A stretch of DNA of 43,086 nucleotides from a virus, in the IMG/VR virus record IMGVR_UViG_3300020281_001005, positions 1 through 43,086 of that record. One strand, 5' to 3'. Positions within the stretch are counted from its first letter, which is position 1. Every line of letters starts with the position of its first letter. A model generated the notes under the pieces. The model was not told where the DNA came from. It saw only the letters and a list, made by a program, of their open reading frames with translations, and did not search any database. The translations under genes and the position numbers were made by a program. Positions 27,622-42,067 of this stretch are shown here, piece by piece.

Positions 27622-28997
27622 TGGAATCACTTGAAGTCACCATTCTCGAAAATCTGATTTATAATGAGGATTATTCTAGGAAGGTAATCCCTTTTATAGA
27701 ACCAGAATATTTCCAAGAGCAAGGTCAGAAGATAGTCTTTGAAGAGACTGTTCAGTTTATTGCTAAGTATGATTCACAGATAACTGTTGAAGCATTACTT
27801 ATTGAGGTCTCAAATCGTAGAGATCTTACAGAACAAAGTCTTCAAGAAATACAACAGTTGGTTGGTACTCTTGAGAAGCGTCCACAAGATCAACAGTGGT
27901 TGTTAGACTCTACTGAGAAGTGGTGTAGAGAACGTGCTATTTACCTAGCACTAATGGAGTCTATTAGTATTGCTGATGGACAAGATGATAAGAAAACACA
28001 AGATGCTATTCCTACAATATTATCTGATGCTCTAGCAGTATCCTTTGATAATAATATAGGACACGATTATTTTGGCAATGTTGATGAACGTTATGAGTAT
28101 TATCATAAGAAAGAAGAAAAGATCCCATTTGATCTTGAATACTTTAACAAGATTACAAAAGGTGGAGTACCGAATAAGACTCTCAACATTGCTCTCGCTG
28201 GCACAGGTGTTGGAAAATCTTTATTCATGTGTCATGTGGCAAGCTCAGTGTTGTTCCAAGGCAAAAATGTTCTCTACATTACAATGGAAATGGCAGAGGA
28301 AAAGATTGCGGAGAGGATTGACGCTAATCTACTTAATGTCAACATACAAGACATAACAGATCTTCCTAAATCTATGTTTGAAGGGAAGATTCAGAATCTA
28401 TTAAGTAAGACACAGGGACAACTTATTATTAAAGAGTACCCTACTGCGTCTGCCCATTCAGGACATTTTAAAGCATTGTTAAATGAACTTGCATTGAAGA
28501 AGTCCTTTAGACCTGATATAATATTCATTGATTACTTAAACATATGTGCATCATCGAGGTATCGTGGTAATTCAACTGTCAATTCTTACTCGTACATTAA
28601 GGCGATTGCAGAAGAACTTAGGGGACTTGCTGTGGAAGCTAACGTACCGATCATTAGTGCTACTCAAACTACTCGTTCTGGTTACGGTTCTAGCGATGTT
28701 GACCTTACCGACACGTCTGAGTCTTTCGGACTCCCTGCTACTGCTGACCTTATGTTCGCTCTCATATCTACTGAGGAATTGGAAGGTCTCAACCAGATAA
28801 TGGTTAAGCAATTGAAGAATAGATATAATGATCCTACAATGTTTAAAAGATTTGTTGTGGGTATTGATAGAGCAAAGATGAGATTATATGATGTAGAACA
28901 AAAGGCACAAGAAGGTATAGTTGATAATGGTCATGATAAGGAGGATGCTCCTGAGACTAAGTTTAAAGATAAGTTTGGAGGGTTTAAATTTGAATAA
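27621..28997 (+). CDS. 41: replicative DNA helicase gp41 (DnaB-like)
   Basis: A 458-residue hexameric helicase. I start it at ATG 27621, one base into the uvsX TGA, rather than the GTG at 27618. The N-terminal helical domain (1-150) is followed by the RecA-like domain: NIALAGTGVGKSLF (Walker A), LYITMEMAEEKIAERIDANLL, IFIDYLNICASSRYRG (Walker B), and PIISATQTTRSGYG...SESFGLPATADLMFAL. It unwinds DNA ahead of gp43. A primase gene (gp61) is not in this window. The downstream oxygenase starts with TTG inside its last codons. Confidence 0.95.
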   Translation: MESLEVTILENLIYNEDYSRKVIPFIEPEYFQEQGQKIVFEETVQFIAKYDSQITVEALLIEVSNRRDLTEQSLQEIQQLVGTLEKRPQDQQWLLDSTEKWCRERAIYLALMESISIADGQDDKKTQDAIPTILSDALAVSFDNNIGHDYFGNVDERYEYYHKKEEKIPFDLEYFNKITKGGVPNKTLNIALAGTGVGKSLFMCHVASSVLFQGKNVLYITMEMAEEKIAERIDANLLNVNIQDITDLPKSMFEGKIQNLLSKTQGQLIIKEYPTASAHSGHFKALLNELALKKSFRPDIIFIDYLNICASSRYRGNSTVNSYSYIKAIAEELRGLAVEANVPIISATQTTRSGYGSSDVDLTDTSESFGLPATADLMFALISTEELEGLNQIMVKQLKNRYNDPTMFKRFVVGIDRAKMRLYDVEQKAQEGIVDNGHDKEDAPETKFKDKFGGFKFE

Positions 28998-29493
28998 TTT
29001 ACCTTTAGAGTTAATGGGTGATCCATCTGTGATTGAGTATCCAGATAGGAGACAATTCCCATGTGATAAGACTGTAGATAAGTGGAAGTCTATAGGTCAT
29101 CTTTATGTTAACTATACAGGATTATTGTTAGAGGAGTATAGAGGAGTTCCTAAGTGGTGTCTTGAGGTTAAGGACTATCTTGTTAACAAATATAATTTAC
29201 AAGATGCTTGTTCATCTATCTACTGTATGCCACCAGGAACTATTATGCCAGAGCATAGGGATACCTATCCTCGTTATAAGTCTCTACATAACATTGACAA
29301 ATTAGAAAAAATCTGTAGAATATTAGTATTCCTAAATGATTGGGAATCAGGACATTACTTTGAGGTTGACACAAAACCTGTAGTGAACTGGACCAAAGGA
29401 GAATATATAATGTGGAGAGGTGACACACCGCATATTGCGGCTAATGTTGGTTCAACCAACAGATATACTATGCAAATTACAGCTCATGACTAA
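28990..29493 (+). CDS. Fe(II)/2-oxoglutarate dioxygenase-like (aspartyl-hydroxylase type)
   Basis: A 167-residue cupin-like protein. The proximal iron motif is MPEHRDTYP (H89, D91) and the distal His is in RGDTPHIAANVG (H148), followed by NRYTMQITA, whose Arg could bind 2-oxoglutarate. I choose TTG 28990 because GGAGGG (28977-28982) lies 7 nt upstream; ATG 29014 has no comparable site. The start lies inside gp41. This fold includes aspartyl/asparaginyl beta-hydroxylases; the substrate is unknown. Confidence 0.75.
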   Translation: MNNLPLELMGDPSVIEYPDRRQFPCDKTVDKWKSIGHLYVNYTGLLLEEYRGVPKWCLEVKDYLVNKYNLQDACSSIYCMPPGTIMPEHRDTYPRYKSLHNIDKLEKICRILVFLNDWESGHYFEVDTKPVVNWTKGEYIMWRGDTPHIAANVGSTNRYTMQITAHD

Positions 29494-29800: not shown

Positions 29801-30151
29801 ATGAGTCCAAATATACACGACATACCTGGAATAGGAGGATTCTACACAAAGAAGGAAGTAGATGACCTAATCAAGGCTGCTGTAGAAGAAGCAAGAGCAA
29901 TTGATGAAGAATCAATGCGTAAGCATAATCGTGATGCTACTATTATTAGTATGATACTTGGGTTCACATGTTTAGCACTATTTGTGGATGGTTTATTAAG
30001 AATTTTAGGAATCATTCCACCATTCATGGATTTAGATGTTAACGTAATAGATGATTTAACAGAGAGAATAGAGAGTGATATGATACCTATGATAAAAGAG
30101 ACAGTTAAGAAGATGCCATCTGTACCTAGGGTGAACAATATGTCATGGTAG
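29801..30151 (+). CDS. single-pass membrane protein
   Basis: A 116-residue protein with a very strong ribosome-binding site (AAAGGAGG, 29790-29797). A helical N-terminal region (VDDLIKAAVEEARAIDEESM) precedes one hydrophobic helix (about 48-69, ATIISMILGFTCLALFVDGLL), then IPPFMDLDVN and an acidic/basic C-terminal helix. No family is recognised. The last codons overlap the sulfotransferase-like start by 7 nt. Confidence 0.7.
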   Translation: MSPNIHDIPGIGGFYTKKEVDDLIKAAVEEARAIDEESMRKHNRDATIISMILGFTCLALFVDGLLRILGIIPPFMDLDVNVIDDLTERIESDMIPMIKETVKKMPSVPRVNNMSW

Positions 30152-30873
30152 TTGATTCTTTAATATCAAGAGATGTTCCTCAACGTAGGGCAGTTATAGA
30201 TGATCTTGTTGAGAAGTATTCAGAATATTGTTCACCATTTACTTTTAAATTAAAAAGAGGATTACCTGGTCAGGCAATCCATAGAGATGGTTTTATCAAT
30301 TGTTATCTTGATGTAAAGAAGAAATTAGTATATCTGCATGTTGATAAGTGTGGAAGTACTTCAATAACTTCAGCGTTTATCTCTGAGGGTATGACCTTTA
30401 TACCTTTGGAGAATTTTCGTAGAGCCAAGGATTATGATACTATGGCAAAGTTTTTGGTTGAGAGTGAATATACATTTTTTGCTATGACTAGAGATCCTTG
30501 TACCAGATGGGTATCTGGTATGAATGAGTTTATGTGTAGATATAAACCACCATTTGATTGGGTATTAAAACAAGTGAAAAATAAGAAGTATGTGTATGAT
30601 GAACATACTGCACCTCAACATTTGTTTTTAAGGTTATGTTTAGAGTATAATGGTAAATTGAAGTTACTAAAATTAGATGGTAACTTAAAACAAAAAGTCA
30701 ATGATTTTCTTGGTATGAATTTAGACATACAGCATCTAAGGCAGTCTAAATATTTCGTGCCTAATTATACCATGTTGGCAAAAAAATTATTCCATCAGAT
30801 TGTAGAACCTGATATGGAAGAATTTAATAAACTCTACGCTATGGACTATGACCTATACAATTCCGCTCACTAA
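30145..30873 (+). CDS. sulfotransferase-like protein
   Basis: A 242-residue protein with the PAPS-binding 5' loop LVYLHVDKCGSTSITSAF (K68) and the 3'-phosphate motif FFAMTRDPCTRWVSGMNEF, both hallmarks of Sulfotransfer_2-type carbohydrate sulfotransferases. These enzymes move sulfate from PAPS to sugars. It overlaps the preceding and following genes, at the head of the glycan island, so a sulfated glycan on virion or host surface is a reasonable inference. The catalytic base is not clear from sequence alone. Confidence 0.75.
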   Translation: MVVDSLISRDVPQRRAVIDDLVEKYSEYCSPFTFKLKRGLPGQAIHRDGFINCYLDVKKKLVYLHVDKCGSTSITSAFISEGMTFIPLENFRRAKDYDTMAKFLVESEYTFFAMTRDPCTRWVSGMNEFMCRYKPPFDWVLKQVKNKKYVYDEHTAPQHLFLRLCLEYNGKLKLLKLDGNLKQKVNDFLGMNLDIQHLRQSKYFVPNYTMLAKKLFHQIVEPDMEEFNKLYAMDYDLYNSAH

Positions 30874-31486
30874 TCAAGTAGTAAGGGATTCAACAATACA
30901 TCAATTTGAACAATTGATTGCAAATTTTTATGGTGCTACTTATGGGATAGCAGTTGACTCATGTACTCATGCAATGGAATTGTGTATGAGATTTGAGAAG
31001 TATGATTTTGTAGAAGTACCAACCAATACTTATCTCTCAGTTCCACTCATCATGAAGAAGATTGGAATAAGACAATGGAGATGGGAAGATAATCAGTGGG
31101 AAAAATATTATTATATTGGCAGCACAAATATTGTTGATGCTGCTGTTTGTTTTGAAAAGAATTCATATATTCCTGGTACATATTTTTGCTTAAGTTTTCA
31201 ACAAAGAAAACATCTACCACTAGGACGTGGTGGTATGATTCTTACTGATGATCCCAAGGCATATTATGTACTAAAAAGAATGTCATGTGATGGTAGAGAT
31301 TTTTATAGACCTTGGAGAGATCAAGATATAGACATTATGGGATATCATTATTATATGACACCAGAGAAGGCTTCTGAAGGAATAGATAGATTCCATGAAG
31401 TAGTTAATAAACCTGTTAAGCATTGGACTTATCAGGATTATCCTTATCTTCCTGATATGTCGGTATTTAAGCATGACAAAGTTTGA
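30848..31486 (+). CDS. truncated DegT/DnrJ/EryC1-type sugar aminotransferase
   Basis: A 212-residue PLP-enzyme-like protein. The N-terminal part has ATYGIAVDSCTHAMELCMRF and FVEVPTNTYLSVPLIMKKIG, and the PLP Lys site reads FCLSFQQRKHLPLGRGGMILTDD with K121 in the expected place. Full-length relatives have about 370 residues; this one ends about 90 residues after the Lys, so the C-terminal small domain is missing or much reduced. It may be a minimal active form, or a degraded remnant that still has an intact frame. It overlaps its neighbours by 26 and 14 nt. Confidence 0.7.
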   Translation: MTYTIPLTNQVVRDSTIHQFEQLIANFYGATYGIAVDSCTHAMELCMRFEKYDFVEVPTNTYLSVPLIMKKIGIRQWRWEDNQWEKYYYIGSTNIVDAAVCFEKNSYIPGTYFCLSFQQRKHLPLGRGGMILTDDPKAYYVLKRMSCDGRDFYRPWRDQDIDIMGYHYYMTPEKASEGIDRFHEVVNKPVKHWTYQDYPYLPDMSVFKHDKV

Positions 31487-32351
31487 TGATAAACTAAAAG
31501 GTTTACCTCCTATATTCTATTTGAATATGGATCATAGAACTGAGAGGAAGGAACATCTTGAGAATGAATTTAGTAAATGGGGTATTACAGATTATACTAG
31601 AGTATCTGCAAATAGATTTCATACTTCAAAAATAAATGAATGGGGACGTAAGTTAGATTTAATGTTACTTGCTCCCTCAGATGCATCAATTGTAATGAAT
31701 GAGTTCTGGACATTTATTGATTGGTATAATTCTGGTATCTCTGAAAATATGATATTAATTCAAGATGATCTTGCATTAGATCTAATTGAATATTGGCCTT
31801 TTGATTGGAATACTTTATATAAAAATCTTCCTTATAATTGGGACATAGTACAATTTTATTATTGCCATAATGATTTTTTAAATATGCACCTCTCTCCTAG
31901 AATTGGTGAGAGTTCATCTGCTGCGTGTATTCTGATTAATAGACATTTTGTTGAGAAGTTAATGAGGATGCATCTTCAACCAGATGGTTCATTTAAACTT
32001 GATAATAATTTAAGAGATATTACTATTCCTAGAGAATGTTATAGTAGTGATGATTGGTTAATATATCAGGTTGGAAAATCATATACATTACCTTTACTTT
32101 GTTTAAATCAAAGGTTGGCAACTAGACCTGATAATAGACAAGAAGCAAGTAAAGAAGAAGAGATGTATGATGAAGTAGTTGCTCAATATCATAACAAGTT
32201 ATATGATATACTTGCCACTACTGTTACTAGGAAATGGTGGGAGACTAGTAGTAAAAATTATAGTGTAGATGATATTTTAAGTTGGGGTTCTCCTATACAC
32301 CATGAGATGAGAATTCAATTACCACAGTATGATGGGAAGGGGCCAGTCTGA
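31473..32351 (+). CDS. GT25-like glycosyltransferase paralogue 1
   Basis: A 292-residue member of a six-copy tandem family. It begins FDDKLKGLPPIFYLNMDHRTERKEHLENEF, a good version of the GT25 donor-binding segment (family pattern Y-NLD-RTDR). The acidic motif position reads ILIQDDLALD (about residue 96) instead of MEDD, so metal binding is altered but two Asp remain. It also has FDWNTLYKNLPYNWD and the family C-terminal motif KWWETSSKNYSVDDILSWG. It probably transfers or once transferred a sugar to a glycan. Confidence 0.75.
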   Translation: MTKFDDKLKGLPPIFYLNMDHRTERKEHLENEFSKWGITDYTRVSANRFHTSKINEWGRKLDLMLLAPSDASIVMNEFWTFIDWYNSGISENMILIQDDLALDLIEYWPFDWNTLYKNLPYNWDIVQFYYCHNDFLNMHLSPRIGESSSAACILINRHFVEKLMRMHLQPDGSFKLDNNLRDITIPRECYSSDDWLIYQVGKSYTLPLLCLNQRLATRPDNRQEASKEEEMYDEVVAQYHNKLYDILATTVTRKWWETSSKNYSVDDILSWGSPIHHEMRIQLPQYDGKGPV

Positions 32352-33217
32352 TGCATGAGAAATTAAAAGGACTACCGAAGATAATATATCTAAATTCTAA
32401 ACATCATTCTGAGAGGGATGATGAGATGAAGACTCAGTTTGATTTGTTAGGTATAGAAAATTATGAACGATATGAGAAAGAATATACTAATAAAAATATT
32501 GAAGAAGACTTAGGTCTACATGATTGGTTAAAATTTATAGAAGATGATTTTACTGCTCTAAGTGTAGAAGAGTTATCTATTACATTAGACCATTATAATG
32601 CAATAGTTAAATGGTTAGATACTAGCGATGATGATGTTTGCATCATAATGGACGATGTTGTTAATATGGATACAATAGAATACTGGCATTTTGATTGGGA
32701 AAAATTTTATTATAGACTTCCTTATAACTGGGATTGTATTCAGTTATTTGTCAATTCAACTAACGAACAGATTAGGACATATCTACATCCTTGGAGAAAG
32801 ACATCTAGATCTACTAGATGTTATATGATAACTAGACAGTTTGCTAAGAAGGTAAAGAAGTTCCATTATAAAGATGGTAAGTTCCGTTTATATTATCCAA
32901 ATAAAGATAGGAGTCATTATGAACCTGATGAGGGAAGTGTTGAGGTAACTTTATTTGATTTGGGAATAACTTATAGTTGTCCGTTATTCCGTCTGACAGA
33001 TATGTTTATGGAGAGTGATGAACTTGATATTAGAATGTGTAGAGATAGGTTATCTTCACAAGCAATACAATACTTTTGGAATTATGCAATAAGTGTTCAA
33101 TCAAATGAGGAATTTTTTAATTATGGATATAGTCAGGATTGGAAGAGAATAGTTACCTTTGATATGAAGTCTGAATGGGTTCATCAGAATAAAGAAAAGA
33201 TATTGGTATGGATTTAG
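32351..33217 (+). CDS. GT25-like glycosyltransferase paralogue 2 (divergent)
   Basis: A 288-residue paralogue, overlapping copy 1 by one base. The N-terminal motif is degraded to IIYLNSKHHSERDDEMKTQF and the acidic motif to IIMDDVVNMD (about residue 100), so it lacks the canonical NLD-R--DR and MEDD. The conserved FDWEKFYYRLPYNWDCIQL and the C-terminal NYAISVQSNEEFFNYG remain. It may be non-catalytic, a partner subunit or specificity module, or have shifted function. Confidence 0.7.
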   Translation: MHEKLKGLPKIIYLNSKHHSERDDEMKTQFDLLGIENYERYEKEYTNKNIEEDLGLHDWLKFIEDDFTALSVEELSITLDHYNAIVKWLDTSDDDVCIIMDDVVNMDTIEYWHFDWEKFYYRLPYNWDCIQLFVNSTNEQIRTYLHPWRKTSRSTRCYMITRQFAKKVKKFHYKDGKFRLYYPNKDRSHYEPDEGSVEVTLFDLGITYSCPLFRLTDMFMESDELDIRMCRDRLSSQAIQYFWNYAISVQSNEEFFNYGYSQDWKRIVTFDMKSEWVHQNKEKILVWI

Positions 33218-34110
33218 ATAATAAGTTAAAAGGTATGCCTCATGTATACTACTTTAATCTGGATAATAGAACAGATAGAAGGCAGTATATGGAGAAGCAA
33301 TTTGATAGGTGGGGTATTAAGTATACTAGATTGTCGGGTACTAAGTATCTCGGATCTCAAGTAAAATCTTGGTCTCATTTAATTGTAGATTATGAGAACT
33401 ATACATTACTACCACCCATTGCTGCTAATGCAATAAGTCATCTTGATTTCTTAAAGAAGTGGTATAAAGAATCTAATGATCCTTATCTTATATTGATGGA
33501 GGATGATTATGATTTAAATTGTATTAAGAGATGGCATTTTGATTGGGAATATCTTATGAGTAGACTTCCTTATGATTGGGATTGTCTTCACATGGGATTT
33601 GAGAATCCAGAGGGGATGCCAATGTTTTTACATCCTATACAATCAGCACATGATTTTGGTCCAGTTCTTTTACATAGAGAATATGTTGAGAAACTTATTG
33701 ATCTTCATTGTGTAGGTGATAGATATAGATTATTAAATACGGTTGCTAATGCTGCTTGGAATTCTGGTAAAGCAGTTGCTGGATCTGGAACAGTTGATTA
33801 TTTTATGGTTCATTGTGGTAGAACATATTGTGTTCCTCTTATTACAATAAATCCATCCTTTGGTAGTTTTGAAGATAACAGTGCTCTACAAAAATTTTAT
33901 AGAGAGAGTGGAGATATTAAAGCAAGAAATGCATATTATTTTTGGTGGAAGCATGAACGAGATAGATTTACTTTAGATGACTTCTTTACCTATGGAACTT
34001 CCAAAGATGCAAAGATGACACTGGACACGGAGAAGTTTTTGCATTATGATATAACTAATAAGATGAGTGAAATCTACGGGGAAAAGTATCTGGAAAACTA
34101 TAGACCATGA
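33208..34110 (+). CDS. GT25-like glycosyltransferase paralogue 3 (canonical)
   Basis: A 300-residue paralogue with intact motifs: VYYFNLDNRTDRRQYMEKQF (NLDNRTDR at 17-24), then ILMEDDYDLN (E98, D99, D100), FDWEYLMSRLPYDWDCLHMGFE, GTVDYFMVHCGRTYCVPLI and YFWWKHERDRFTLDDFFTYG. This is the pattern expected for an active retaining or inverting GT25-type enzyme of lipooligosaccharide or protein glycan synthesis. It starts 10 nt inside copy 2. Confidence 0.8.
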   Translation: MDLDNKLKGMPHVYYFNLDNRTDRRQYMEKQFDRWGIKYTRLSGTKYLGSQVKSWSHLIVDYENYTLLPPIAANAISHLDFLKKWYKESNDPYLILMEDDYDLNCIKRWHFDWEYLMSRLPYDWDCLHMGFENPEGMPMFLHPIQSAHDFGPVLLHREYVEKLIDLHCVGDRYRLLNTVANAAWNSGKAVAGSGTVDYFMVHCGRTYCVPLITINPSFGSFEDNSALQKFYRESGDIKARNAYYFWWKHERDRFTLDDFFTYGTSKDAKMTLDTEKFLHYDITNKMSEIYGEKYLENYRP

Positions 34111-35087
34111 CTGTTAAAAAATACGAATTCGCTGATAAGTTAAGGCACTTGCCACATATTCTTTATACCAATGTAAAGTCACAGATTAACAGAAAGCATT
34201 GGATGGAATATCATTTTAGAATTTATGGTATGGCATTTACTAGGATTGAACAACCTCCTATTAAAGATATGCCTAAAGATTTTCATAAGCAATTAGTTGG
34301 GGATTATTCTGATAAAAGTTCTATAATAATTAATTGGTATTCATCTCAGATTTTAGATCTATTGCGTAAGTGGTTAGATGATACTAAAGCAACTGGTGAA
34401 CCTTATATCATTTTAATGGAGGATGATTATGATGTAAGGATCTCAGACTACTGGCATTTTAGTTGGGATTATATGATGGAGCAATTACCTTATGGGTGGG
34501 ATTGTATCCAGTTAGGATTTGAATCTCCAGATGTAGTTCCATTTTATTTGCATCCTACTAAACCAGAGTATTCTCTTGGTGCTACTTTAATGAGTAGACA
34601 TTATGCTGAGAAGTTATTGGATCTTCATTATATTAATGGTAAATATAAATTTGATAATGTAATTGCAAATTCTGTGTATATGAATAGAGAATCTGGAATA
34701 CATGATGGAATGAATTATGATCAGACTTCAGGATCACCAGATTACTTTATAGCACAATCTGGTAATTGTTATTCTCTTCCTATGATACCTATAGTTCCAT
34801 ATTTTTCTGGAGTTAGTGATCATGGAGGTTCTGGAGATGATAATGCTTGGCAAGCAAGACCTAGTTTTTTAAAATGTTATAAAGCATATTGGGAGTGGTG
34901 GACACAGGATAGAGATAACTTTACTTCTGATGAATTTTTTAGTTATGGTAAGGATAATGATAATCTTATGGAGAGGGATATCTCACAATGGAGTGATAAA
35001 TATTTCCTCGAACAAGCACATTCACAACGAAAAGAATTTTTGACTAGATTCGGGTTGGTATTAGACAATCATGGCATTAAAGGATAA
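34107..35087 (+). CDS. GT25-like glycosyltransferase paralogue 4
   Basis: A 326-residue paralogue. The N-terminal motif is weakened (ILYTNVKSQINRKHWMEYHF), but the acidic motif ILMEDDYDVR (about residue 104), FSWDYMMEQLPYGWDCIQLGFE and SPDYFIAQSGNCYSLPMI are kept. It is longest of the six because of insertions near ANSVYMNRESGIHDGMNYDQT. The C terminus has WEWWTQDRDNFTSDEFFSYG followed by a tail. It may use a different donor sugar. Confidence 0.75.
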   Translation: MTVKKYEFADKLRHLPHILYTNVKSQINRKHWMEYHFRIYGMAFTRIEQPPIKDMPKDFHKQLVGDYSDKSSIIINWYSSQILDLLRKWLDDTKATGEPYIILMEDDYDVRISDYWHFSWDYMMEQLPYGWDCIQLGFESPDVVPFYLHPTKPEYSLGATLMSRHYAEKLLDLHYINGKYKFDNVIANSVYMNRESGIHDGMNYDQTSGSPDYFIAQSGNCYSLPMIPIVPYFSGVSDHGGSGDDNAWQARPSFLKCYKAYWEWWTQDRDNFTSDEFFSYGKDNDNLMERDISQWSDKYFLEQAHSQRKEFLTRFGLVLDNHGIKG

Positions 35088-35892
35088 ATTAAAAGGATTA
35101 CCTAGGGTTTATTATTTTAATAATAATAAAGTCCTAGATGAACATATGGACAGGAGTCTAAGTAACTTAGATGTCATGGACTATAGTTGTATGCGTATTA
35201 AGTATACAAGTGAGAATATTTCTGAATGGAAAGATTTAATTTTAAATAGATCAGATTATAAACTTCCTGTTAGTGTTGCTGGATTTTCTATATCAGTTCT
35301 TGAATTTTTAAAGGATTGGTTAGATGTTACAGAGCAGGATCAAGATCCCGAATTAATAATTATGCGGGATACTATTGATTGGGAAGTTGCTCAAACAGAT
35401 CTATCTTATACATGGGATTTTGATTGGAAATATATTCATTCAAGATTACCTTATGATTGGGATTGTTTTCAATTTGGATTTGAGAATTTACATTATATTC
35501 CTTTTTATCTTCATCAGATAATGCCAGCGACTACCTTTGGTCCTTCTCTATTGAATAGGAGATACGTTAAGAAGTTAGTCAGGTTACATTATAAAGATGG
35601 TAAGTATGATCTTAACGGTAAGATTGCAAATTTAAACTTTGGTCTTAAGTCTGGAACAGTTGATTATTTTATAGGTCATAACGGTAAAACTTATTGTCTT
35701 CCTTTACTACCTAATAATCCAAAGTTCTTCCCAAGTAATACTAAAAAGTTTAAGGTAGTACGTGCTTGTAAATTAGCATACTATGATTGGTGGGTTAATG
35801 AGAGTAAGAAGTTTAGTCTTGAAGAGATTTTTACTTATGGTAAAACAAATGATCTTGGTATGATTAGGAAGACTATGAATTATTATAATTGA
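35071..35892 (+). CDS. GT25-like glycosyltransferase paralogue 5 (probably non-catalytic)
   Basis: A 273-residue paralogue. The N-terminal motif is lost (RVYYFNNNKVLDEHMDRSL) and the acidic motif reads IIMRDTIDWE (R99 in place of Glu), with an insertion before FDWKYIHSRLPYDWDCFQFGFE. The family fold motifs GTVDYFIGHNGKTYCLPLL and YDWWVNESKKFSLEEIFTYG remain. Retention of fold but loss of donor and metal motifs suggests a structural or regulatory partner. It overlaps copy 4 by 17 nt. Confidence 0.7.
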   Translation: MALKDKLKGLPRVYYFNNNKVLDEHMDRSLSNLDVMDYSCMRIKYTSENISEWKDLILNRSDYKLPVSVAGFSISVLEFLKDWLDVTEQDQDPELIIMRDTIDWEVAQTDLSYTWDFDWKYIHSRLPYDWDCFQFGFENLHYIPFYLHQIMPATTFGPSLLNRRYVKKLVRLHYKDGKYDLNGKIANLNFGLKSGTVDYFIGHNGKTYCLPLLPNNPKFFPSNTKKFKVVRACKLAYYDWWVNESKKFSLEEIFTYGKTNDLGMIRKTMNYYN

Positions 35893-35893
35893 T

Positions 35894-36703
35894 ATGCTTA
35901 AGTATGATAAAGGTAAATTAAGAAATTTTCCTCATGTATATTATGTCAATCTTGATAATAGAACTGATAGAAAAGAATACATGGAGAAGCAGTTTGAGTT
36001 TTGGAGATTAGATTTTACTAGAGTCTCTTCTTCAAAATATGCTGCGTCTAAAGCAAAAGAGTGGGGAGCAGATAAGGTAACTGGTAAGGTTACTGGTATG
36101 CCAGCATATGTTGTTGGTAATGCAGTTACTCATCTAGAGTTTATGAAGGATTGGTTGAATACCTCAACTGATCCTTGGTTGCTTTTAATGGAAGATGATT
36201 ATGATTTAAATCTATTTCAATATTGGAATTTTAATTGGGATTATCTAATGAATAGAATTCCTTATGATTGGGATTGTCTTCAAATTGGATATGAGTCTAC
36301 TAAGTTTATACCATTCTTTTTACACCCAAAATTAAATCATACTTATTTTGGTCCAGTTATTTTACAAAGAGATTATGTTGAGAAGATATTGGATTTACAT
36401 TCTGATGGAGATAAGTGGAATTTTGAGAAGGTATTAGGAGATAAGAAGTTTAATAAATCTGCTGGAACTGTCGATTATTTTATTGGACATACTGGTAGGA
36501 CATATTGTATTCCATTAATCACTACTAACGATACGCTGACAAGTGGAGAAAATGGTGTTATGATTAATAGAATACATCATAAACATTCTAGACGTGCATA
36601 TTACCATTGGTGGATGACACAACATAAGAAGTTTAGCTTGGATGATTTCTTTACTTATGGTAAAGTAAATGATCATAAGATGATAATCTCAACTATAAAA
36701 TAA
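35894..36703 (+). CDS. GT25-like glycosyltransferase paralogue 6 (canonical)
   Basis: A 269-residue paralogue with canonical motifs: VYYVNLDNRTDRKEYMEKQF (NLDNRTDR at 19-26), LLMEDDYDLN (E100, D101, D102), FNWDYLMNRIPYDWDCLQIGYE, GTVDYFIGHTGRTYCIPLI and YHWWMTQHKKFSLDDFFTYG. It is closest to copy 3. It starts one base after copy 5 and is followed by one base before the amidinotransferase gene. Confidence 0.8.
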   Translation: MLKYDKGKLRNFPHVYYVNLDNRTDRKEYMEKQFEFWRLDFTRVSSSKYAASKAKEWGADKVTGKVTGMPAYVVGNAVTHLEFMKDWLNTSTDPWLLLMEDDYDLNLFQYWNFNWDYLMNRIPYDWDCLQIGYESTKFIPFFLHPKLNHTYFGPVILQRDYVEKILDLHSDGDKWNFEKVLGDKKFNKSAGTVDYFIGHTGRTYCIPLITTNDTLTSGENGVMINRIHHKHSRRAYYHWWMTQHKKFSLDDFFTYGKVNDHKMIISTIK

Positions 36704-36704
36704 T

Positions 36705-37709
36705 ATGTACGCTACTAACGAATGGGATAAACTTAAGAAGGTTATAGTTGGTGTTGCAGATTATGCAACTATGCCACCTGTAGAGAAGGATACTAGAACT
36801 ATTAATTATGCTGGTGTTAAACCAAGGAAGAAGATGTTTGGTTTTGGTGATGAGGAGTATCTTCCTATTAAAGTTGGACCATTTCCAGAGCAAGTAATTA
36901 CAGAAGCAAATGAGGATTTAGAAGTCTTTGTTAATTTTTTAAAAGGTGAAGGTGTAGAGGTTGTACGTCCAAAGAGAGAACCAGTAGAATATTATAATTA
37001 TTGTCCTAGAGATTCTGTATTTGTACATAGTAATCTTGCTTTAGCAACTCCTATGCCTCTAAGATCTAGAAGAGGTGAGTGGAGATCAATGCGTGAGCAT
37101 TTACCAAATGCTATTGAGATGCCATGTCAATATATTGATGAACTTTATAATGAAGATTGTATTGGTAATCCAGATGTCTTAGCATTAAATGAAGTTACTC
37201 CAGCATTTGATGCTGCTAATACTCTTAGAGCAAATACTGATATTTTATATTTGGTATCAAATAGTGGTAATGAATTAGGTGCTGAGTTATTACAACATCA
37301 GTTACATGAAGCAGGATGTGATGCAGATGTTCATTTACTTAAAGATGTTTATTCATACTCTCATATTGATACTACAGTAGCATTTTTAAGAGAAGGACTT
37401 ATACTTGCAAATCCATCTAGATTAAAAGATAAGGATCAGTTGCCAGGACCATTTAAGGAATGGGATGTTATATATTGTCCAGAAGCGATTGACATAGGAT
37501 CTTACCCTGGATATAATAACATGTCAGTATGGGCGAACATGAATTTGTTCAGCATCAATCCAGGTTTAGTTGCTCTTGAAGAACATCAAGAACCAACTAG
37601 AAAACTTCTTGAGAGTCATGGTATAGAATGTGCTATGCTTCCAATGAGGCATCAAAGAACTTTGAGTGGTGGATACCATTGTGTAACACTTGATTTGGAG
37701 AGAGAATGA
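36705..37709 (+). CDS. glycine/inosamine-type amidinotransferase
   Basis: A 334-residue member of the AGAT/StrB family, which moves an amidino group from arginine to an amine. The catalytic triad is visible: D169 in TPAFDAAN, H220 in YSYSHIDTTV and C326 in LSGGYHCVTLD. PRDSVFVHSNLA is the family N-terminal motif. In glycan islands such enzymes can add guanidino groups to amino sugars, consistent with the aminotransferase-like gene nearby; glycine amidinotransferase activity is the alternative. The stop overlaps the dehydrogenase start by 4 nt. Confidence 0.9.
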   Translation: MYATNEWDKLKKVIVGVADYATMPPVEKDTRTINYAGVKPRKKMFGFGDEEYLPIKVGPFPEQVITEANEDLEVFVNFLKGEGVEVVRPKREPVEYYNYCPRDSVFVHSNLALATPMPLRSRRGEWRSMREHLPNAIEMPCQYIDELYNEDCIGNPDVLALNEVTPAFDAANTLRANTDILYLVSNSGNELGAELLQHQLHEAGCDADVHLLKDVYSYSHIDTTVAFLREGLILANPSRLKDKDQLPGPFKEWDVIYCPEAIDIGSYPGYNNMSVWANMNLFSINPGLVALEEHQEPTRKLLESHGIECAMLPMRHQRTLSGGYHCVTLDLERE

Positions 37710-38920
37710 ATATAGGTTTTATTGGTCTTGGCAAACTTGGCATGCCTTGTGCTGAGGAGGTTGCTAAGGCAGGTCATTTTGTATTTGGATATGATGTTGA
37801 ATCTAGAGATAGTTGTTTAGTAGACATTCGTCCATCAATTAAAGAAGTTGTAATTAGATCGGATATAATTTTTATTGCTGTTCCTACACCTCATGATAAA
37901 GATTATGATGGTAGTAAACCATGCATGCATTTAGAACCAAAAGATTTTGATTATAGTATAGTCGAGAATGTAATAAAAGAAATTAATAAGTATGTAGATA
38001 ATCAATTAATAGTTTTAATCTCTACAGTTTTACCTGGTACAACTAGAGAAAGATTCACACCAATGAAAGGTAGGTTTGTATATAATCCTTACCTTATTGC
38101 TATGGGTACTGTTGCATTTGATTTTACAAATCCAGAGATAGTAATGATAGGTACTGAAGATGGTACTGAGACTGGTGATGCTAAAGAACTGATTCAATTT
38201 TATAGATCAATAGCAAAGAATGATCCACCTTATATTGTTGGTACATGGGATGAGTGTGAATGTATAAAAGTTTTTTATAATACATTCATTAGTAATAAAA
38301 TTAGTTTTGTCAATATGATTCAAGATGTTGCTGAGAGACAGGGTAACATTAATGTTGATGTTGTTACTGGTGCATTGTGTCAGGCAGGAACTAGGATTAT
38401 CAATTCATCTTATATGACAGCAGGTATGGGTGATGGTGGTGCTTGTCATCCTAGAGATAATATTGCTCTTAGATTTTTGGCAAAGAAGTTAGAACTTGGA
38501 TATGATTTGTTTGAAGGTATAATGTTATCCAGAGAAGAACAGGCAAAGAATTTAGCAAAAAGGTTGGTTGAACTTGCATTAGAGAATAGGATGTCTATTG
38601 TTATTCATGGTAAAGCATATAAACCAAGGGTATCATACATTGAAGGAAGTTATGGTTTATTGGTAGGTCATTTTTGTAAGGAGTTGTGTGGTAGTGTTGA
38701 ATTATCATATGTTGATAAATGTACAGGAGATACATATGATAGCGATAAACCTGCTGTGTTTTTACTTGCCCATAGTGCAACAACAACTTATAGATACTGG
38801 GATAATCCAGATAGTGATGAACTATATTGTGAGATCCCAGATGGCAGTATAGTCGTTGATCCTTGGAGGAAATTTACTTCAGATACTTTAGAGGTTATTC
38901 ATTATGGCAAGACTAGATGA
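37706..38920 (+). CDS. UDP-glucose/GDP-mannose dehydrogenase family enzyme
   Basis: A 404-residue NAD-dependent four-electron dehydrogenase. The N-terminal NAD motif IGFIGLGKLGMPCAEEVAKAGH, FIAVPTPHD, ISTVLPGTT and the catalytic region AGMGDGGACHPRDNIALRF (C247) are intact, followed by the C-terminal KAYKPRVSYIEGSYGLLVG. It would oxidise an NDP-sugar to a uronic acid, a donor for acidic glycans. It is between the amidinotransferase and an oxygenase-like gene with 4-17 nt overlaps. The exact sugar is not readable. Confidence 0.9.
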   Translation: MNIGFIGLGKLGMPCAEEVAKAGHFVFGYDVESRDSCLVDIRPSIKEVVIRSDIIFIAVPTPHDKDYDGSKPCMHLEPKDFDYSIVENVIKEINKYVDNQLIVLISTVLPGTTRERFTPMKGRFVYNPYLIAMGTVAFDFTNPEIVMIGTEDGTETGDAKELIQFYRSIAKNDPPYIVGTWDECECIKVFYNTFISNKISFVNMIQDVAERQGNINVDVVTGALCQAGTRIINSSYMTAGMGDGGACHPRDNIALRFLAKKLELGYDLFEGIMLSREEQAKNLAKRLVELALENRMSIVIHGKAYKPRVSYIEGSYGLLVGHFCKELCGSVELSYVDKCTGDTYDSDKPAVFLLAHSATTTYRYWDNPDSDELYCEIPDGSIVVDPWRKFTSDTLEVIHYGKTR

Positions 38921-39491
38921 GATGATAATGTTCAGTATATCTTGTAGAAGATACAAGGTTAATAACTGGGCACAGAAGAAAAAACAATTATTAGATATGG
39001 TTGATGCTGATTGGTCAATGTCTGAGAGGATTCAAGATCAAGAAGTTGTTGATTGTCATACGGATTACTTCTCTACTAATGGAAGAGCATCATATTTTGA
39101 TATATGGTATAATATTCTTAAAGAAGATCTTGATGATGCCCTACCACAAACTGGGTTGCCTTTAGCAAATCCAGAGATGTGGCAACTATGGACTCAAAAA
39201 TATAGAAGAGGTCATTATCATGGAGCACATAATCATGGATGTTCAAATTTGTCATGTATCTTATATGTTGAATTTGAAAAGGGATTACATGAACCTACAG
39301 CGTTTTATCAACCATTCCCCGATCCTTGGTTTGGAACTCTACACAAGATACAACCTCAAATAGAGGAAGGAGATATTTTAATGTTTCCTGCTGTACTCTT
39401 ACATGAATCTCCTGTATCACGTTCTGATAAAACCAGAACAGTTATGTCCTTTAATATACCAGTAGGTAATTTTTATGCAGAATCAAATTGA
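38904..39491 (+). CDS. 2OG-Fe(II) oxygenase-like protein
   Basis: A 195-residue protein. RRGHYHGAHNHGCSNLSCILYVEF supplies several candidate iron ligands (H104, H106, H109, H111); the distal His is in FPAVLLHESPVS (H167), followed by SDKTRTVMSFN, where Arg may bind 2-oxoglutarate. The usual HxD is replaced by a His-rich HxH cluster, so the ligand set should be checked. Such enzymes hydroxylate sugars, proteins or nucleotides. It begins inside the dehydrogenase gene; ATG 38922 is an alternative start. Confidence 0.65.
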   Translation: MARLDEMIMFSISCRRYKVNNWAQKKKQLLDMVDADWSMSERIQDQEVVDCHTDYFSTNGRASYFDIWYNILKEDLDDALPQTGLPLANPEMWQLWTQKYRRGHYHGAHNHGCSNLSCILYVEFEKGLHEPTAFYQPFPDPWFGTLHKIQPQIEEGDILMFPAVLLHESPVSRSDKTRTVMSFNIPVGNFYAESN

Positions 39492-39885
39492 CCCAAAAAA
39501 ATATGCTCAGTTTGTTGATGGTGTAACAAGCGAACCATCAAAAGATTTTGACGCATTCATTTATAGATTGCAAGAGTTGAATGGTGAGAACTCTGATATT
39601 CAACGTCTTCTTACTGCTGCTGTTGGATTATCTGCAGAGTCTGGTGAGTTTACTGAGATAGTTAAGAAGATCATCTTCCAAGGTAAACCTTATAATGATG
39701 ATAACATTTATCATATGAAGAGGGAGTTGGGTGACATTATGTGGTATCTTGCTCAAGCTTGCATGGCACTAAATACTAACTTTAATGAAATTCTTGAGAT
39801 GAATATAGACAAACTCAAGTCCAGATATCCTGGCGGTGAGTTTGATGCACACTATTCTGAGAATCGTAAGGAGGGAGACCTATGA
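39475..39885 (+). CDS. mazG: MazG-type nucleotide pyrophosphohydrolase
   Basis: A 136-residue MazG-like protein that hydrolyses NTPs or dNTPs (and possibly ppGpp) to monophosphates. Metal motifs are LSAESGEFTEIVKK (ExxxE) and MKRELGDIMWYLAQAC (ExxD), in the family order. Phage MazG is widespread in marine T4-like cyanophages; its in vivo substrate is disputed. It overlaps the oxygenase gene by 17 nt and the DUF2997 gene by 4 nt. Confidence 0.92.
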   Translation: MQNQIDPKKYAQFVDGVTSEPSKDFDAFIYRLQELNGENSDIQRLLTAAVGLSAESGEFTEIVKKIIFQGKPYNDDNIYHMKRELGDIMWYLAQACMALNTNFNEILEMNIDKLKSRYPGGEFDAHYSENRKEGDL

Positions 39886-40966: not shown

Positions 40967-42067
40967 ATGGCAAAATACGATGCTAAGACAATATATAATG
41001 CGTTGAGTGAGAGGCAAAAAACTTATAATGTTATTAATGAACAAATGCCAGGTGGTGCTAAGACCACTGGATTAATTAGAGTTGAGTCTACACAGAGACA
41101 AAAATGTAAGAATTTGATAGTTAATATTTTAAGTGATATAAAGCAACCTTATAAGGAAGTTAAGAAACCGAACATCTCTAGTTTTCCACATTTACAAATT
41201 ACTGATCTTTTATTATCAAATAAAAATAAAAAAGCAGAGACTTTGAGGATTGTTTTTAAATTCCCTAAGGGTGCTGATCAACCAGATTATGGGAAGATGT
41301 GGAATCCATTATTGCTTGATCTTTTTAAGAGTCATCAAACACTTAAAAGAGTTCCTAAGAATAGAGATGAGATAAGTGTACTAACAGAAATTAATCAAAA
41401 AATTTATGAATTATCTAGTGAGCAACCAGTTAAAGTTAAGATTGGTAATGTAACAGCAAATAATATAATAGGTGTTGTTGGTGGTGTTGGTAATAAACAT
41501 GCCGATCTTGTTTTTATAAGTGATCAACGACCATTTGAAAGGATATTTTTATCTTATAAAGCTGGTTTTGGACCAAAAGATTTTCAACAATATAGTGGTA
41601 TAAGTAAGATATCTGGTCTTGCTAATACTAATGAAGTTAAGAGGTGGAGAGGAGATGTTGTTAAAAATTGGGATGAAGAATCACCTACTAGATGGAGATC
41701 CATTGGATCTGCACGTTTAAAGAGGAATGCAGTTATGGGATCTGGTGCTGCTAATGGTAGTCTTAAAAAGGGCAATCATTCTGCTTGTCAGGTTTTTGCT
41801 CAAGGCACTCCATCACTTACAGGAAATCTTAAAAATGGTATTACAATTACCTTTGATGCTATGTTACTTACCAATACTAATGGTCAAGTTGCTTCATTAA
41901 ATGGTACTGGTTACGAACCAACTTTAGGTGCTCGTAAAGGAGAAGCGGCTCGTAGAATTACTGCTCCAGGTGGAATATTTGGTACAAAAGTTTTGCGTGG
42001 AGTTCGAGGTGGAATTTATAGTAAGGAGTATTTAACTTCTCGTAGGAATAGCAAGCCATTAGAATGA
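40967..42067 (+). CDS. unknown protein, possible nuclease-like region
   Basis: A 366-residue protein with ribosome-binding CTGGAGA region and an upstream late-type motif. The middle contains GNKHADLVFISD (D180) followed by IFLSYKAG (K198), a D-x(n)-xxK arrangement like PD-(D/E)xK nucleases, though the Glu is not obvious. The C-terminal third is Gly/Ser/Asn-rich and basic (GSGAANGSLKKGNH, ARKGEAARRITAPGGIFG). It could be a virion-associated or DNA-end-processing enzyme. Other identities are not excluded. Confidence 0.6.
   Translation: MAKYDAKTIYNALSERQKTYNVINEQMPGGAKTTGLIRVESTQRQKCKNLIVNILSDIKQPYKEVKKPNISSFPHLQITDLLLSNKNKKAETLRIVFKFPKGADQPDYGKMWNPLLLDLFKSHQTLKRVPKNRDEISVLTEINQKIYELSSEQPVKVKIGNVTANNIIGVVGGVGNKHADLVFISDQRPFERIFLSYKAGFGPKDFQQYSGISKISGLANTNEVKRWRGDVVKNWDEESPTRWRSIGSARLKRNAVMGSGAANGSLKKGNHSACQVFAQGTPSLTGNLKNGITITFDAMLLTNTNGQVASLNGTGYEPTLGARKGEAARRITAPGGIFGTKVLRGVRGGIYSKEYLTSRRNSKPLE

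Follow-up and report, generated by a model that had tools for sequence, protein, structure and literature searches.

An ordered array of six GT25-like glycosyltransferase genes in a candidate guanidino-glycan operon of T4-like cyanophages

Introduction

What would a phage do with six glycosyltransferase (GT) genes in a row? The question arises from IMG/VR record IMGVR_UViG_3300020281_001005, positions 1 to 43,086 (the whole stretch of 43,086 nucleotides analysed here, hereafter the window), in which six consecutive genes occupy positions 31473–36703 on the plus strand. A first-pass annotation described them as GT25-like paralogues of a T4-like cyanophage that share a fold outline and a set of sequence landmarks, and supposed that repeated duplication had supplied diversity for the decoration of virion fibres or host surface glycans. 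Phage glycan clusters have been described before, as have single GT25 genes in cyanophages. In a literature search outside which most subscription papers lay, we found no description of an ordered six-gene array, of conserved degenerate positions within one, or of one linked to an amidinotransferase like StrB1 and a shortened DegT protein, nor any paper on a cyanophage array or on the cyanophage S-SCSM2R. The host recognition cluster of pelagimyophages and cyanomyophages has been described as a variable region mixing tail fibres and glycosyltransferases (Zaragoza-Solas 2020, PMC7029224). That study stresses GT8, its authors favour modification of the O-chain, and its main text has no match for aminotransferase or sulfotransferase (amidinotransferase was not searched there).

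Here, we report that the six copies are ancient orthogroups, kept in a fixed order under purifying selection. We describe the putative operon around them, which allows us to weigh several explanations of what it may build.

Results

Six related genes with a predicted GT25-type fold

The genes, named GT1 to GT6 in their order, encode proteins of 292, 288, 300, 326, 273 and 269 amino acids, and successive genes overlap or abut (spacing of −17 to +1 nt). Every pair is alike over most of its length in BLASTP comparisons (23–47% identity, 83–272 bits, E 4e-22 to 4e-95), whereas shuffled copies reach at most 28 bits; the similarity is therefore far above chance. All six proteins match the PHROG profile phrog_2835, 'glucosyltransferase' (E 1e-14 to 2e-43). 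The proposed tandem array is confirmed by its open reading frames, by these similarities and by the profile matches. The comparison with hidden Markov models that the first-pass annotation had called for was less uniform with the Pfam profile of GT25, PF01755: GT3 scores 23.7 bits as a protein against a cut-off of 24, and 24.3 bits together with its frame neighbours in a genome search, GT6 lies below the cut-off (Table 1), and GT1, GT2, GT4 and GT5 are unmatched. NCBIfam holds no name for any of the four GTs submitted to it, and a profile of 110 GT members, compared with the sequences of the PDB, returned the N-terminal part of mimivirus R655 as its sole match.

AlphaFold models were built for GT3 and GT5, from 110-sequence alignments (predicted local distance difference test, pLDDT, in Table 1). 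The top Foldseek matches of both in the PDB are GT25 members, with E-values of 1e-7 to 1e-9 and modest TM-scores of 0.4–0.65; they include mimivirus R655, a bacterial beta-1,4-galactosyltransferase and, for GT5, COLGALT1, in addition to many viral GT25 proteins. The models thus predict a GT25-type GT-A fold for GT3 and GT5, and the lack of a GT-A fold, named beforehand as the outcome that would speak against the assignment, did not arise. With phrog_2835 matched by all six, the identity as glycosyltransferases and the kinship to GT25/GT-A are supported, although the modest TM-scores point to distant members rather than close kin.

The sequence landmarks mostly held. KL(K/R)xxP near the N terminus, FxWxxxxxxxPYxWD and a C-terminal W...G align in all six copies. 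The acidic motif and the DYF segment are not universal: copies 3, 4 and 6 have EDD for the former, but copies 1, 2 and 5 have QDD, DDV and RDT, respectively, and in copies 1 and 2 the latter is replaced by DDW and VEV. The PYDWDC segment of the GTs resembles D461-W-D463 of COLGALT1, a pair that is essential for activity (PMC3244457).

The copies diverged long ago

When 2.9 million viral contigs were scanned with the GTs as seed, 78 loci were obtained. In 46 of these (L006–L051), many of them near-identical and so not independent events, the genes follow one order as far as the contigs reach, some being truncated: sulfotransferase, short DegT, GT1, GT2, GT3, (GT4), GT5, GT6, amidinotransferase, dehydrogenase and mazG. 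This order is referred to as architecture A. Presence varies at position 4 only, which five-GT phages lack. Each position forms its own clade in trees across related contigs (support 98–100), with GT1 and GT2 on one side of the tree and GT3–GT6 on the other. Forcing the six copies of the window together, as a recent expansion within the genome would have it, is rejected by the approximately unbiased test (p-AU 5e-30), and the duplications are therefore old. The trees give no sign of gene conversion between copies. By a counting method, the ratio of nonsynonymous to synonymous substitution rates (dN/dS) is 0.02–0.26 in most comparisons; GT2 evolves fastest, and GT1 and GT6 are among the slowest. 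The first-pass annotation had asked for pairwise identities and a duplication tree. The former upheld the relatedness of all pairs, but the latter overturned the supposition of diversity through recent or ongoing duplication.

Two positions have lost canonical residues

With residues numbered as in GT3, R21, E98, D99, D100, D102 and D197 are invariant in the orthologues of GT3 and GT6, so that all 32 orthologues of GT3 and all 29 of GT6 carry EDD, which is also found in nearly all GT4 orthologues. GT1 has QDD in 34 of 34 orthologues and keeps R21 and D197. The orthologues of GT2 have lost the third acid of the motif, D100, and mostly also R21 and D197. In all 30 orthologues of GT5, position 98 is R or K, position 100 is T, I, S, Q or C, and R21 is gone; D99, D102, the DWD and D197 are retained. 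The reading frames of GT2 and GT5 stay open and constrained. The fold outline first drawn for all six thus captured a common family and overlooked the loss of canonical motif residues in two copies.

From the combination in GT5 of an intact fold and purifying selection with motif loss we infer a non-catalytic partner, and GT2 and GT5 are both probably of this kind, judging by their residues. Accessory GT-like domains pair in this way in multidomain GT25 and lysyl hydroxylase enzymes. Alternatively, the metal site may have been remodelled around D99 and D102, which are kept.

The surrounding operon

The genes from the DegT-like gene to mazG (30848–39885) overlap or abut, and the region therefore looks like one translationally coupled operon (Table 1). 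The StrB1-like amidinotransferase keeps its catalytic H220, D222 and C326 in all 62 homologues. The short DegT protein has 70 homologues in which the Schiff-base lysine K121 for pyridoxal phosphate (PLP), in SFQxxKHLxLGRGG, and D97 are invariant. Its homologues in the PDB are sugar aminotransferases of 373–440 amino acids, with scyllo-inosose aminotransferases matched weakly; the C-terminal part is missing in all the phage-type homologues found, which fall short of a full-length two-domain protein of about 370 amino acids. The dehydrogenase has its active-site cysteine, C247, in GG(A/S)C, and the sulfotransferase conserves K68, S71-T72-S73 and R116, which resemble a loop binding 3'-phosphoadenosine 5'-phosphosulfate, in 47 homologues. 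Two 2-oxoglutarate (2OG) oxygenases complete the set. The first, OG1, probably starts at 28945, has HxD...H...R invariant in 70 homologues and belongs to a conserved core, accompanying the cassette in architecture A and in architectures B and C described below. The second, OG2, is restricted to part of the lineage. No cassette enzyme has a clear transmembrane segment, and between gp41 and mazG we recognised no gene for a flippase, a polymerase, a ligase or an initiating phosphosugar transferase. Ten cassette proteins, including the six GTs, had no match among models of defence systems.

Table 1. Genes of the array and its cassette in the window (coordinates, strand and supporting evidence)
Feature	Coordinates	Strand	Assignment	Evidence
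OG1	28921..29493	+	2OG-Fe(II) oxygenase, weakly Asp/Asn beta-hydroxylase-like (PF05118)	Pfam E 0.002, under cut-off
Sulfotransferase	30145..30873	+	Sulfotransferase (PF03567)	Pfam E 3.5e-9, over cut-off
Short DegT	30848..31486	+	DegT/DnrJ/EryC1/StrS aminotransferase-like, 212 aa	Pfam E 3e-15
GT1	31473..32351	+	GT25-like, slow-evolving	phrog_2835 E 1e-33; orthogroup support 100/100; dN/dS 0.03-0.15
GT2	32351..33217	+	Fast-evolving paralogue	phrog_2835 E 6e-37; dN/dS mostly 0.06-0.36
GT3	33208..34110	+	Canonical GT25-like	PF01755 E 5e-5; phrog_2835 E 2e-42; AlphaFold pLDDT 93.9
GT4	34107..35087	+	Long-branched, EDD	phrog_2835 E 1e-26; 98/99 clade with position-4 genes of L032, L046
GT5	35071..35892	+	[R/K]D[T/I/S/Q/C] in place of EDD	dN/dS 0.04-0.26; AlphaFold pLDDT 91.3
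GT6	35894..36703	+	Canonical GT25-like	phrog_2835 E 2e-43; PF01755 E 0.0045
Amidinotransferase	36705..37709	+	StrB1-like	phmmer to inosamine-phosphate amidinotransferase 1bwd, E 4e-56, full length
Dehydrogenase	37706..38920	+	UDP-glucose/GDP-mannose dehydrogenase family	Pfam E 3e-17; PHROG E 2e-88; PDB 1mfz, 3vtf
OG2	38904..39491	+	Second 2OG-Fe(II) oxygenase	PF13759 E 1e-12; phrog_81 E 3e-33

Three further features were noted around these genes. A small protein with one strongly hydrophobic segment is encoded at 29801–30151, between OG1 and the sulfotransferase, and only in the contigs closest to the window. Within the amidinotransferase gene, at 37489–37517, there is a perfect sigma-70 consensus (TTGACA-17-TATAAT, 12/12), about 190 nt ahead of the dehydrogenase start; it was set aside as a probable reflection of coding constraint, and its −35 part is not kept in all relatives. 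At 40967–42067, a 366-amino-acid protein with a weak match to phrog_13937 varies among relatives (34–64% identity) between conserved neighbours.

Linkage of the cassette to the array and other architectures

A second scan, seeded with the amidinotransferase, is an independent test of the linkage between the cassette genes and the GTs. It gave 80 viral loci, several of them near-identical and hence not 80 independent events, of which 72 encode one or more GTs of this family and 67 three or more; the short DegT occurs in 75 and a 2OG oxygenase in 76. The eight loci without GTs comprise one cut at the contig end and seven of architecture C. In architecture B, two small proteins directly precede the cassette, together with a long 2OG protein; the S-SCSM1 homologue of the small proteins bears the annotation 'tail fiber protein'. 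On longer contigs the cassette usually ends in a NodU-type carbamoyltransferase; this NodU/CmcH-type gene at the cassette end (L078, 15398–16978, and other B loci) suggests a carbamoylated glycan. Architecture C, as in L209 (9325–10005, 10947–12475 and neighbours), combines a DegT, an SGNH-like protein, the amidinotransferase, OG1 and one further protein. Its core is near large, repetitive proteins that look tail-like by eye, and a radical SAM-like protein is found nearby on the opposite strand. Linkage to tail-fibre-like genes thus concerns B, where they lie just upstream, and, by the appearance of the sequences, C; it is absent in the window itself.

Relatives of the GTs occur in 97 phage records. 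Among 50,697 phage records, S-SCSM2R is the one cyanophage that combines the short DegT with a close amidinotransferase, and its GTs likewise form a multi-copy array. Its cassette (PQ898602, 228–237 kb) resembles that of the window in having four GTs of this family, the short DegT, a PF05118-like 2OG protein and the StrB1-like amidinotransferase; it differs in gene order, in an extra radical SAM protein and a GT2-family gene, and in lacking both the six-gene A-type array and an adjoining dehydrogenase.

The half-length DegT family is widespread in phages, for instance in glycan clusters of a 642 kb uncultured phage (L085) and of a Flavobacterium Immutovirus (L086), and with its PLP lysine it is possibly a distinct enzyme class. 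In the giant phage (6615–7868), the short DegT shares 46% identity with that of the window and a relative of the window dehydrogenase 37%, with alpha-1,2-fucosyltransferase-like genes nearby. Distant amidinotransferase homologues (about 25%) are present in Campylobacter phages CP220, CP20, CPt10, F379 and others.

The phage and the site of the cassette

The window encodes UvsY, a UvsW-type helicase, a gp55-type sigma factor, gp46/47, a sliding clamp, a clamp loader, gp43, UvsX and gp41, some of these T4 gene names being our reading of PHROG descriptions, as well as Hsp20, a cobS-type protein, MazG, a ferredoxin oxidoreductase and two DNA methyltransferase-like genes. The DNA polymerase gp43 is 83–84% identical to those of marine single-cell viruses and of Prochlorococcus phages P-SSM5 and P-SSM2, and several array-bearing relatives carry psbA/psbD-type genes. 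These features support the placement as a T4-like cyanophage, proposed at first pass, and one close to P-SSM2. At the same site P-SSM2 has gp41, one gene and then mazG, so the interval filled by the cassette is empty in this near relative.

Discussion

We judge the chances to be about even that the product of the operon is an oligosaccharide with guanidino and perhaps sulfate groups, attached most likely to virion fibres, with the six GTs as a fixed division-of-labour set for joining its sugars. In this pathway, the short DegT would install an amino group on a building block, and the StrB1-like amidinotransferase would turn it into a guanidino group. The sugar-nucleotide dehydrogenase would provide a uronic acid, the sulfotransferase would add sulfate, and the PF05118-type oxygenase may hydroxylate the acceptor or a sugar. 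Copies 1, 3, 4 and 6, the four likely catalytic ones, would transfer sugars sequentially, with copies 2 and 5 acting as non-catalytic partners. The product perhaps carries sulfate or carbamate. Because all cassette enzymes look soluble, assembly would most likely be cytoplasmic. A virion protein, for instance a tail fibre, is the likeliest acceptor, given the fibre-like neighbours of architectures B and C and a cassette in which no gene for membrane export was recognised. The fibre decoration suggested at first pass is therefore plausible. We infer all of the enzyme activities, as well as the guanidino-sugar product, its acceptor and the part of non-catalytic partner given to copies 2 and 5.

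The same genes could instead remodel the lipopolysaccharide (LPS) or O-chain of the host during infection, for instance to block superinfection or keep progeny from sticking to debris, with the GTs drawing on lipid-linked or LPS precursors of the host. The glycosyltransferases of related pelagimyophages have been interpreted in this way (PMC7029224), and other cyanophages hold single GT25 genes in LPS-like clusters. Host flippases could stand in for the export and assembly genes missing between gp41 and mazG, but this gap, the soluble appearance of the enzymes and the tail-fibre-like neighbours of architectures B and C make the explanation less likely than the first, if still its main and a serious rival. 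A free guanidino-sugar or aminoglycoside-like small molecule, glycosylated and acting inside or outside the infected cell, would fit the best solved homologue of the amidinotransferase, streptomycin StrB1, the weak match of the short DegT to scyllo-inosose aminotransferases and the co-occurrence of StrB1 and DegT enzymes in streptomycin-type pathways. Six dedicated GTs would, however, be a large number for a small metabolite, we recognised neither a cyclitol synthase nor a kinase or exporter among the cassette genes, and bacterial amidinotransferase relatives with about 40% identity have no such GTs nearby, so we regard it as improbable.

A target in DNA is more remote again. A T4-like phage with 2OG oxygenases and DNA methyltransferase-like genes might glycosylate hydroxymethylated bases, as T4 or TET-type phages do; yet OG1 and OG2 belong to other 2OG families, and among 12 array-bearing contigs, some incomplete, Tet_JBP had no match above the cut-off and one sub-threshold hit. 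GT25 is, to our knowledge, not a family of DNA glucosyltransferases. We consider this explanation very improbable. Hardly any credence is left for redundant paralogues kept for dosage, or for the pool for antigenic or fibre variation proposed at first pass: tandem paralogy and the fast GT2 would suit it, but the separate clade, fixed place and own motif signature of each position, the rejected recent expansion and trees with no sign of gene conversion have already largely refuted it.

Several observations weigh against a guanidinylated fibre glycan assembled with non-catalytic partners. The otherwise invariant middle Asp is kept in all GT5 and in 32 of 34 GT2 orthologues, and both could still be active. 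The short DegT may not be an aminotransferase, as it lacks the C-terminal half of the known enzymes. The seven GT-free amidinotransferase loci have no GT of the family within 10 kb, which means that the core can exist without the array, and the near-identity of many contigs reduces the weight of the counts. In the window, moreover, the operon sits in the replication region (gp41–mazG), away from structural genes. The full proposal, in which a pathway to a guanidino-bearing virion glycan includes positions 2 and 5 as conserved pseudo-glycosyltransferases pairing with active neighbours, is a tentative one that we hold to be rather doubtful.

Comparison with known systems sets the array apart in several respects. 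The single GT25-type GTs of cyanophages such as S-SRM01, S-T4 and S-CAM9 are of the same protein family (phrog_2835) as all six copies; nearly all of these phages have one copy, which in the two examined lies inside an LPS-like cluster with fucosyltransferases and heptose genes, and neither the StrB1-like amidinotransferase nor the short DegT was found in them in the phage records searched. COLGALT1, R655 and the bacterial beta-1,4-galactosyltransferase (8xlz, among others) are the best fold matches, but share only 8–18% identity with the array GTs, which are tandem single-domain copies. The phage amidinotransferases have full-length homology and the catalytic Cys, His and Asp in common with StrB1, yet no streptidine pathway surrounds them, and they stand apart as a separate group, sharing about 40% identity with the closest bacterial relatives found. 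The host recognition cluster (PMC7029224) accommodates architectures B and C, whereas architecture A of the window lies in the gp41–mazG interval. Two other candidates were rejected. A bacterial source of the cassette is not indicated by these bacterial relatives, which have neither such GTs nor a short DegT within 10 kb, in an amidinotransferase-seeded scan that covers hosts with that gene and not GT25 arrays in hosts without it. A collagen-like acceptor, by analogy with the hydroxylysine glycosylation of mimivirus and COLGALT, finds no PF01391 in 12 related contigs, and the three forward frames of the window contain no long GXY run.

The glycan genes known from cyanophages are mostly LPS-like ones, variable and scattered. 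The array, in contrast, is an ordered, ancient and constrained set across dozens of uncultured aquatic phages, with the StrB1-like amidinotransferase in only one cultured cyanophage found. Since this phage, S-SCSM2R, is cultured on Synechococcus WH7803, the question is directly testable. With the conserved motif loss at positions 2 and 5, nature also provides a way to ask whether GT25-type pseudo-enzymes act as partners. If a guanidinylated virion glycan is indeed made, the particle would bear a positively charged decoration unlike any that we know of in phages, and this would have consequences for its protection and for host recognition.

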